From positions 2,232,001 through 2,296,000 of the forward strand of contig NC_012785.1 of NCBI RefSeq assembly GCF_000023325.1: a DNA stretch of 64,000 nt, written 5' to 3'. The position numbers and the translations under genes are program-made. This DNA is from Kosmotoga olearia TBF 19.5.1 (GTDB lineage Bacteria; Thermotogota; Thermotogae; Petrotogales; Kosmotogaceae). A model generated the notes under the pieces. It did not search any database. It was given only the letters and a program-made list of their open reading frames with translations, and was not told the DNA's origin. Below are positions 28,937-53,200 of this stretch, piece after piece; position 1 is the stretch's first letter; each line of letters starts with the position of its first letter.

Positions 28937-29389
28937 TTACACATAATTACGGAATGCTTTCGAAAGTTCTTCCAGATGCCTTTCTTCCTCTCTGATTATC
29001 CTTTCCAAGAGTCTCTTTTTTGGAATGTATTCTACCAATCTCTTGTAAAATTCGATAGTGTCTTTTTCAATTTGCACGGCAGCTTTCACCGCTTTTTCCA
29101 GATCATCTATAACCTTTTCAGCGTCTTCAAAAGAGAAAATGGAAATCTCTGCGAGACTTTTTAAAAAATCAGCATTTTCAATCTCATAAGGCACAGCGTC
29201 CGTTTGTTCATCTTTGTATTCCTTCATCAAATCTCGGAACCATTCCACATGCTCCTTTTCCTGCCTGGCAAGACTTTCAAATAAGACTTTATTGTAACCA
29301 GGTGACCTATCCGCTAGCTTAGAATAGTAGGAATAACCTTTCTCTTCAATTTCAATTGCAATCTCCAGTAGTTCTGTAATACCTATCAT
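28937..29389 (-). CDS. Ferritin-like / rubrerythrin-type diiron protein
   Basis: 150 residues forming a four-helix ferritin-like domain. Metal-ligand-like positions are present: IEIEEKGYSYY in helix 1, RQEKEHVEWF in helix 2, IEKDTIEFYKRL in helix 3 and REEERHLEEL in helix 4 (two ExxH pairs). This is the pattern of rubrerythrin's diiron domain, without the rubredoxin-like iron domain. In anaerobes such proteins reduce peroxide or store iron. It stands alone on the minus strand. The exact activity is not determined by the sequence. Confidence 0.82.
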   Translation of the reverse strand: MIGITELLEIAIEIEEKGYSYYSKLADRSPGYNKVLFESLARQEKEHVEWFRDLMKEYKDEQTDAVPYEIENADFLKSLAEISIFSFEDAEKVIDDLEKAVKAAVQIEKDTIEFYKRLVEYIPKKRLLERIIREEERHLEELSKAFRNYV

Positions 29390-29837
29390 AAAATCCCCCT
29401 TTTTTAGCCAGAATTATAACTACTTCCATTATACAAACTATGCTCATCACAACCAAAGCCTATGTACACCGCGGAACATTCAATCTAGAAGAAGAAAGCG
29501 AGATTGGATGTTGGAGATTGGAGAAAACTGCTTCGAAGCGGAAGTGCTGAGCTGCGCTCAGGAGGCTCACGACGTTGACGCTCACGAGGTTGAGGCTTGC
29601 GGACGCTGATAAAAGTCGAGATTCGAGAAGTTAAGTACTGTAGATCCTGAGTCAAGTTCAGGATGACGTATCAGCCTTTGCAAGCGTCGCTCCATCAATT
29701 GACAGCGTTGCAAGCCTCAACCTTGTGAGCGTCAACCGTGCAGCGGTTCTTTCTGTAACACATTCTTAATAGTCAATAATTGAACATCGTGTTAGTATCT
29801 CTTGGTCGGTATTTTTTGATTTACGGAGGTATTTAAC
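29390..29837. other. 448-bp intergenic stretch without a gene
   Basis: No convincing ORF on either strand. The middle part (29530-29736) is a symmetric set of nested inverted repeats described separately. The first 120 bp and last 100 bp are AT-richer and show nothing recognisable beyond the ribosome-binding site of the next gene (GGAGG, 29825-29829). Confidence 0.6.
29530..29736. repeat. Nested inverted-repeat element (27-bp arms around a central palindrome)
   Basis: Arms 29574-29600 and 29710-29736 are inverted copies matching at 26 of 27 positions. Exactly at their midpoint (29654-29655) is a 7-bp palindrome with a 7-nt loop (ATCCTGA ... TCAGGAT, 29644-29664). Left of the arm are GCTTCGAAGC (29530-29539, perfect palindrome) and a hairpin CTGAGC-TGC-GCTCAG (29547-29561). 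It contains no ORF. It resembles a multi-copy intergenic repeat, a MITE or a structured RNA, more than a terminator. Copy number cannot be judged from one window. Confidence 0.75.
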
Positions 29838-30182
29838 ATGGTTGATGGAACAAATGATTTTCAGGATTTTGTTGCGGGACACGATTCTAATGGTCACGAG
29901 CATCTTGAGATGTTCGCTATAACGGATGAGGCTGGTCAGGAGCACAATTTTGCCCTTATCGAACAGTTTGAGCACAATGGCGGCCTGTATTGGGTATGTC
30001 AGGAAGCTTTCTTTGAGGATGATGACAAGATAAGATTCGACGAAGAATCCTTTGTGGTATTCAAAGCCGAACAGGACGACGATGGGAATCTTTACCTGAA
30101 CTCCCTGGAAGATGAGGAATTCGAGTCATTCCAAAAAGCCTGGGAAGCTAGCTTCGAAGAAGAAGAAGAAGAAGAGAACTAA
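29838..30182 (+). CDS. DUF1292-like small acidic protein
   Basis: 114 residues, very acidic, ending in a run of Glu. The core (EMFAITDEAGQEHNFALIEQFEHNGGLYWV...) resembles DUF1292 (YrzB-type) proteins, which share a [DE]EDG-x-E-x-x-F-x(4)-x-F-x-x-x-G-x-x-Y pattern and a final EEEF-x-x-x-x-x-x-WEE-like segment (here DEEFESFQKAWEASFEE). Function is unknown in all members. ATG 29838 follows GGAGG by 8 nt. It is monocistronic, between the inverted-repeat element and a strong terminator. Confidence 0.75.
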   Translation: MVDGTNDFQDFVAGHDSNGHEHLEMFAITDEAGQEHNFALIEQFEHNGGLYWVCQEAFFEDDDKIRFDEESFVVFKAEQDDDGNLYLNSLEDEEFESFQKAWEASFEEEEEEEN

Positions 30183-53070: not shown

Positions 53071-53097
53071 AAAAAAAATGACCGTCCGGGGGACGGT
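53071..53097 (-). terminator. Riboswitch-controlled intrinsic terminator
   Basis: On the minus strand ACCGTCC-CCC-GGACGGT is followed by CA and eight T, 16-40 nt before the thiB start. The segment TCCCCCGG in it is complementary over 8 bp to CCGGGGGA at the 5' end of the TPP aptamer. Confidence 0.9.
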
Positions 53098-53103
53098 TCG
53101 AAA

Positions 53104-53193
53104 ACGCCCTCCCTTCGCCGGTATTACCCGGATCAGGTTCAAGGGGTCTGCGCCGAACGCACTCTCAGCCTGTACAGGCTCCCCCGGCAGTTC
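53104..53193 (-). ncRNA. TPP riboswitch (thi-box)
   Basis: Read on the minus strand the leader contains the conserved thi-box elements in order: GGGGGAGCC, a short P3-like GTACA hairpin closing in GGCTGAGA, then GACCCCTTGAACCTGATC, CGGGTAATACCGGCGAAGGGA. These match the TPP aptamer consensus (CTGAGA and ACCTGATC ... GGTAATACCGGCG). It is followed by a hairpin terminator, so TPP binding should turn transcription of thiBP off. Boundaries are approximate at the P1 stem. Confidence 0.96.
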
Positions 53194-53194
53194 C

Positions 53195-53200
53195 ATTATA
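53195..53200 (-). promoter_or_regulatory. -10 box of the thiB-thiP transcript
   Basis: TATAAT on the minus strand, with TTCCAT at a 17-bp spacer upstream. The inferred transcript start near 53188 places the first bases of the aptamer at the very 5' end of the RNA. Confidence 0.55.

Follow-up and report, generated by a model that had tools for sequence, protein, structure and literature searches.

A gap of 448 bp in the genome of Kosmotoga olearia TBF 19.5.1, from either side of which a rubrerythrin-family gene (minus strand) and a DUF1292 gene (plus strand) diverge, probably holds one copy of a mosaic intergenic repeat that is a passenger at this locus. Two opposite copies of a repeat module, module A, flank a CGTC-tagged REP, and a short hairpin, H_A, stands at the left edge. 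The new observation concerns this left-flank hairpin, one of a family with over 200 members, in which many different, compensating stems carry an almost fixed C-GNA-G triloop. The gap lies in a window of 64,000 nucleotides (NC_012785.1, positions 2,232,001 to 2,296,000), and the features within and beside it are collected in Table 1.

Table 1. Features of the divergent gap and its flanking genes, in window coordinates.
Feature	Position	Strand	Remarks
Rubrerythrin-family gene (PF02915)	28937..29389	-	Pfam match
Conserved rubrerythrin upstream region	29392..29462	-	alignment with the upstream region of the G002 orthologue; ends at 29462
Rubrerythrin promoter-like TTGGTT (29451-29456), 17-base spacing, TATAAT (29428-29433)		-	read by eye
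Repeat module, GAGATTGGATGTTGGAGATTGGAG-type	29487..29524	+	multi-copy in the host genome (G000); also in G002 and G004 (similarity matches)
Perfect 10-bp palindrome GCTTCGAAGC	29530..29539		other copies have GCCGCTACGCGGC-type hairpins at the same place
Hairpin H_A, CTGAGC-TGC-GCTCAG	29547..29561	+	minus strand gives a C-GCA-G triloop; stem covaries among copies
Module A, left copy	29565..29612	+	best genomic copies 87-99% identical, about 29520-29628
Left arm	29574..29600		inverted partner of 29710-29736
Central CGTC-tagged REP, CGTC-ATCCTGA...TCAGGATC	29643..29668	-	stem 29644-29650/29658-29664
Module A', right copy, opposite orientation	29669..29743	-	minus-strand extension GTCAATTGATGGAGCGACGCTTGCAAAGG
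Right arm	29710..29736		inverted partner of 29574-29600
Degenerate hairpin AACCG-T-GCA-G-CGGTT	29734..29748		T.G replaces the C-G closing pair
DUF1292 promoter-like TAGTCA (29770-29775), 17-base spacing, TAGTAT (29793-29798), extended TG	29770..29798	+
DUF1292 gene (PF06949)	29838..30182	+	Pfam match

The original prediction had proposed a multi-copy, REP-like intergenic element, and a similarity search bore this out, with 128 matches to window positions 29470-29770 in the host genome (G000, 2,302,126 bp). By hand count, 68 of the 128 fall within about 0.19 Mb at 1.27-1.46 Mb, some 8% of the genome, and this dense stretch also carries both host copies of a RAYT-type transposase gene. Identity among the best copies is 87-99% across the left 70-110 bases of the query, and a relative of the right half, at 898043-898165 of the host genome, is 80% identical to module A' with the central REP included. 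Some modules also occur in related genomes, clearly in G002 and G006 and with weaker matches in G004 and G008; in G040, from another family, the central palindrome alone was matched. The 24-mer core of module A had no match among genome contigs beyond the Kosmotoga group, in a collection that may omit the host genome. A phage or plasmid origin was rejected, since searches of both kinds of collection with the sensitivity of blastn found no match.

We compared about 35 loci side by side, and the copy statistics given here refer to the loci read, except for the genome-wide counts of 128, 42 and 171. The loci are mosaics of a few modules whose order and combination differ from one locus to the next. 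Module A consists of GCTCACGACGTTGACGCTCACGAGGTTGAGGCTTGCGGACGCTGATAA and its variants, built from diverged units of about 15 bp, and is immediately preceded by the 15-base hairpin H_A; module C is the GATCCTGAATCAAGTTCAGGATGAC palindrome. Further modules are CCGAGAATCCGAGA runs, GAGATTGGATGTTGGAGATTGG tracts, a GTCATTCTGG...CCAGAATC palindrome and hairpins of 15 bases arrayed in trains, with the contexts CG/AA...TT/G, GTAAG/.../GGT and GCTATG/.../GC. Distinct short palindromic repeats that vary in order and orientation between genes are what defines BIME- and NIME-like elements, and this is what the loci contain. Their intergenic placement is partly obscured, because by simple ORF calling 90 of the 224 hairpins fall within an ORF of 100 aa or more. 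Convergent gaps had 2.9 hairpins per kb, tandem gaps 1.5 and divergent gaps 1.7; we claim no preference for gene orientation from these densities because ORF calling in repeats is unreliable.

Three further arrangements were observed. Positions 97543-98758 of the host genome contain a higher-order tandem duplication, about three copies of a mosaic of roughly 0.4-0.5 kb that includes module A and hairpin trains. In G006 (contig C2, 303001-306500, bases 200-700 of that locus), a tandem array of CAATTGTCGTACCATCA-like units, akin to the extension of module A, lies upstream of a gene. A large palindrome cluster at 1944190-1945010 of the host genome has several GTCATTCTGGAAATG...CCAGAATCT palindromes among CGTC REPs.

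The central palindrome is a CGTC-tagged REP, of a class already reported from K. olearia (PMC3733652). On the minus strand an unpaired CGTC at 29668-29665 is followed by the AT-starting palindrome ATCCTGA, and the pattern of the central palindrome has 42 matches in the host genome, a high copy number, against 0 for the reversed control. The other Kosmotogaceae examined had none, and another family within the class had a few. The superfamily was described by Di Nocera et al. 2013 (PMC3733652), who name K. olearia and M. prima as having CGTC-3 REPs with unusual loops, report for K. olearia no tyrosine-transposase gene flanked by CGTC sequences, and treat the spread and palindrome upkeep of CGTC REPs without a dedicated transposase as an open question. 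The window centre shares with these CGTC-3 REPs the tag, the AT-starting palindrome, the high copy number, the species and the lack of a transposase flanked by the repeat; the likeness ends with the 26-bp centre, since neither module A nor H_A nor the trains of hairpins are described in the accessible text of that paper. Where the CGTC-3 figure consensus would call for a 9-bp stem, the commonest host copy shows 8 bp; the window copy, which is single, has 7 bp through one A-to-G change relative to the commonest copy. At least 115 stretches from the genomes of other bacteria, in many phyla, contain the exact 26-mer with R allowed at one position, the hosts among the matches listed including Sphingomonas, Sulfurimonas, Bacteroidales, Vibrio and Armatimonadota. 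These matches, together with the CGTC-tagged REPs described in PMC3733652, bear out the tentative earlier statement that sequences close to the central palindrome recur in other bacteria.

Copies of H_A were collected by their flanks ([GA]A[AG]NG before, GA[CG]GC after), with no palindrome required. From 36 distinct flank hits we kept 21 by eye according to context, leaving out CCGAGA-type repeats and hits resembling unrelated or coding sequence, and dropped one more for alignment. In the resulting 20 distinct sequences 95% of the stem cells are paired, and the covariation score reaches 0.547, where shuffles gave 0.213 and slid versions no more than 0.133. Compensatory changes had been named beforehand as a check on the element, and the H_A stems do contain them: double-sided changes occupy 27 cells, against 8.9 in shuffles, and are found at 5 of the 6 stem pairs. 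Selection by eye favours recognisable copies; the unselected flank hits (n=69) are likewise bimodal, 40 having 5-6 of 6 pairs and 24 having 0-2. Because of this pairing and covariation and the bimodal unselected counts, we conclude that the palindrome has been retained rather than the sequence.

In all contexts it is the loop that the hairpins keep constant. Repeat-rich host DNA (223.5 kb) contained 343 perfect hairpins whose stem is 6 bp or longer and whose loop has 3 bases; 206 of them have a C-G closing pair and a GNA loop (TNC on the other strand), compared with 1.0 in local shuffles, an excess of about 200-fold to which common descent of a few hairpin types contributes. These 206 use 34 different stems. 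Their loops are GAA (110), GCA (58), GTA (35) and GGA (3), followed among the other hairpins by AAA (23), ACA (9) and ATA (4), with the remaining C-closed loops combined at about 20. Arbitrary host stretches (280 kb) contained 18 C-GNA-G hairpins against 1.75 expected. Over 140 kb each, G002 had 2 where 0.8 were expected and G009 had 1 where 0.85 were expected, both near chance; G030 had 3 in 120 kb against 0.3 expected. A subtype pattern, CGAACYNCTNCGNRGTTG, had 171 host matches where the control had 1; in G006, G004 and G002 it matched 9, 5 and 2 times. Within the window, the hairpin preceding module A is of the C-GNA-G kind and the one at the outer end of module A' is a degenerate form. Our search of the Kosmotoga literature, with most subscription journals beyond its scope, found no account of these hairpins.

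Mini-hairpins of the d(GCGAAGC) type are exceptionally stable as DNA. The promoter hairpins of the phage N4 virion RNA polymerase also have a C-G closing pair and a loop with G first and A last, and C-GNA-G is the sequence required there for supercoil-driven extrusion; this likeness concerns DNA structure only and we claim no homology. The host hairpins keep the same two loop positions, and the middle base varies. In the nearest-neighbour parameter sets used, a triloop has the same energy whether or not it is GNA, with no GNA bonus, so folding energies do not inform the choice between DNA and RNA, and we have taken the DNA-specific stability of GNA loops from the literature. A fixed loop on variable stems would argue for selection on, or copying through, folded DNA, and the C-GNA-G signature points to folded DNA rather than RNA.

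The host has two RAYT-type Y1 transposase genes, at 1.342 and 1.355 Mb (1341659-1342354 and 1355258-1355983), whose products as read from ORFs are about 95% identical and have lengths of 242 and 236 aa. Both proteins pass the Pfam PF01797 cut-off (58.6 vs 23 bits) and fall under that of the NCBIfam REP-transposase model NF047646 (67.4 and 68.3 vs 80 bits). Degenerate CGAAC-type hairpins lie directly 3' of both genes. In two Mesotoga-like genomes, G003 and G007, a RAYT 3'-end remnant is followed by a train of C-GNA-G hairpins, and the sole match of each genome to the hairpin pattern lies in that train, at most 180 bases from the remnant; in the Mesotoga-like G009 the train stands at related sequence and the RAYT remnant is missing. 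As these trains have one shared ancestor, we count them as a single observation, which supports a historical link between hairpin trains and RAYT. A GGGGACA...TCCCCATTTTC palindrome lies inside the coding sequence of the host RAYT-like genes, and a protein that looks RAMP-like by eye is encoded beside one of the copies.

With RAYT/TnpA_REP and REPIN systems the host shares two RAYT-like proteins that have REP-like hairpins directly downstream, and its hairpins resemble group 3 REPs in being perfect palindromes with short loops, one group 3 REP having a 3-nt loop. The flanks of the host RAYT genes are of GGGACAG type, and TIRYTs have GGGGWSAS motifs. Unlike those of RAYT/REPIN systems, the host hairpins have no GTAG guide, and the NCBIfam score is below the cut-off. 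No common GTAG tetranucleotide was found beside the palindromes in the contexts of four hairpin classes; we therefore do not assign the repeats to GTAG REPs or REPINs, and recognition of the hairpins by RAYT lacks the support that a uniform tag of this kind would give.

We propose that the modules may have spread as non-autonomous repeats through folded single-stranded DNA. Since the C-GNA-G triloop folds and extrudes easily, hairpins of this kind would be expected to arise on the lagging strand, or else, where supercoiling is negative, as small cruciforms. A RAYT-type HUH transposase, of which the host has two copies with related hairpins after each, may have supplied the activity that cleaves and transfers strands; the modules would then have been reshuffled, and genes rearranged, as copies underwent homologous recombination with one another. 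For the RAYT and folded-DNA steps of this scheme, and hence for RAYT mobilisation of the modules and a function of the cruciforms, which we infer, we would put the chances at somewhat short of even. It is a tentative suggestion that the more than 200 C-GNA-G DNA hairpins, with their more than 30 compensating stems, are kept or spread through single-strand folding or supercoil-driven mini-cruciforms; if true, this would set them apart as a class of repeats by the chemistry of the loop and not by sequence, and they might serve a GTAG-less RAYT as substrate.

The alternative that survives best retains the same mosaic and dispenses with transposition: palindromes would be made and maintained by fold-back (template-switch) synthesis seeded by stable GNA mini-hairpins, and spread by recombination and duplication only. 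Such synthesis could give the same pattern of loop and stems without selection, in keeping with a loop that is fixed on differing stems of preserved complementarity, and the tandem mosaic duplication at 97.5-98.7 kb also fits. Against it, a few stems and linkers dominate, which implies that whole hairpins were copied to many loci, and hairpin trains adjoin RAYT genes. We regard this account as unlikely, though worth keeping in mind.

That the element is a structured RNA, such as a leader, a terminator or a small RNA, and is conserved because of how the RNA folds, is an improbable explanation. Predicted folds are very stable on both strands, base pairing continuing past the arms and the z-score for positions 29530-29760 being -6.9 for the plus and -6.0 for the minus strand, and the compensatory changes in H_A would suit an RNA as well. 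That both strands fold is also a point against it, as are the absence of the long stem from most copies, the lack of conservation of the element at the orthologous gene and the match between the conserved loop and a triloop known from the literature for its stability in DNA. Structured RNA had been among the earlier suggestions; the element has no Rfam family at the gathering score, and a known RNA family was accordingly rejected. The one hit of the Rfam scan of the window at that score is a TPP riboswitch at 53093-53195 on the minus strand.

In G002 the DUF1292 gene diverges from another gene, putatively CYTH-like by sequence reading, and the phosphorylase and HIT genes that follow it are those of the window; about 590 kb separate it from the rubrerythrin orthologue, which is flanked by module-like sequence. 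The patch thus sits at a gene-order breakpoint relative to the nearest relatives, between two promoter-like regions that look intact. On the rubrerythrin side, where a scan with a consensus promoter returned none, the TATAAT read by eye falls inside the upstream stretch conserved in G002, conservation stopping at 29462. On the other side, GTGTTAGTAT in the promoter-like region is common to Mesotoga-like orthologues, and matches colinear with the DUF1292 start, including the extended -10 TGTTAGTAT at 29790-29798, begin near 29743; each of these short matches is near the shuffled maximum in score and none is better, their support being colinearity with the start codon. The mosaic fills the space between promoter-like regions joined by rearrangement, with recombination between dispersed copies as a plausible cause.

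A cis-regulatory region dedicated to the DUF1292/rubrerythrin pair, which the position in a divergent gap between two promoter-like sequences might suggest, is very improbable on this evidence. The two genes are not neighbours in G002, the upstream regions of their G002 orthologues have no equivalent element near the start, and dozens of other sites have the same modules. The original prediction had raised the possibility of regulation of DUF1292, which does not fit upstream regions of orthologues that, where read, are without the element, or promoter-like sequence that is intact on each side. The patch is most likely a passenger and not a dedicated DUF1292 regulator; possibly it serves as a supercoil-absorbing spacer between the two divergent promoters.

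The symmetry that first drew attention to the patch combines real arms with an accidental centre. The 27-bp inverted arms pair at 26 of 27 positions, as claimed, against a best of 20 of 27 among 300 first-order-Markov simulations of the 448-bp gap. The palindrome ATCCTGA-7-TCAGGAT at 29644-29664 is likewise where it had been placed, as are the 10-bp palindrome to the left and its neighbouring separate hairpin. The coincidence of the arm and palindrome centres, put forward as an argument against chance, did not hold up: with the palindrome free to sit anywhere in the 109-bp interval between the arms, coincidence within 1 bp is estimated at about 3%. The loci read contain 64 A and 22 C copies, and the order A-C-A' occurs in the window only. 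Opposite A pairs with no intervening C are found at about 439.5, 525.5 and 530.8 kb, and C followed at short spacing by an inverted A occurs again at 898 and 1270 kb. Because of this recurrence we regard the right half as a recurrent combination and the left A as an independent neighbour; given also the single occurrence of A-C-A', the coincident centres are not a conserved feature, and we rejected them as a sign of function. The symmetry is a chance assembly, neither a unit transposon nor a designed feature.

Least probable of all is the earlier suggestion of a MITE, which would be about 163 bp long with the arms as termini and a DDE transposase acting in trans: the arms are long and nearly perfect and their sequence has many genomic copies, but elsewhere the arm modules are mostly single or in direct orientation, A-C-A' stands alone, the other inverted A pairs differ in contents and spacings, module A runs beyond the arms and no flanking duplication is apparent at the arm ends, so that the arms are not terminal inverted repeats of a whole recurring unit and this reading is largely refuted.

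The patch is best filed as a BIME/NIME-like mosaic intergenic repeat, neither a MITE nor a known RNA. Like E. coli BIMEs and the intergenic mosaics of Neisseria (in which dRS3 is CGTC-1), it combines different short repeats in alternating orientation between genes, and the CGTC-1 elements of Neisseria are likewise interleaved with other repeat families. It differs from both in its sequences, in having no GTAG tag and in the triloop-hairpin trains with many stems.

The feature is real and ordinary in kind, an intergenic repeat mosaic at a breakpoint with a known REP at its centre, and the suspected designed element gives way to a passenger at the junction of a rearrangement. What deserves further attention is the population of loop-conserved, stem-variable hairpins around the patch. 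A population with variable stems and a fixed loop suggests that the folded DNA strand, not RNA or the sequence itself, is what is recognised or copied. With varying stems, and a loop confined to a few sequences whose folding as DNA is the best, it offers a direct handle on how short palindromic repeats that lack a dedicated transposase spread and why they remain palindromic.
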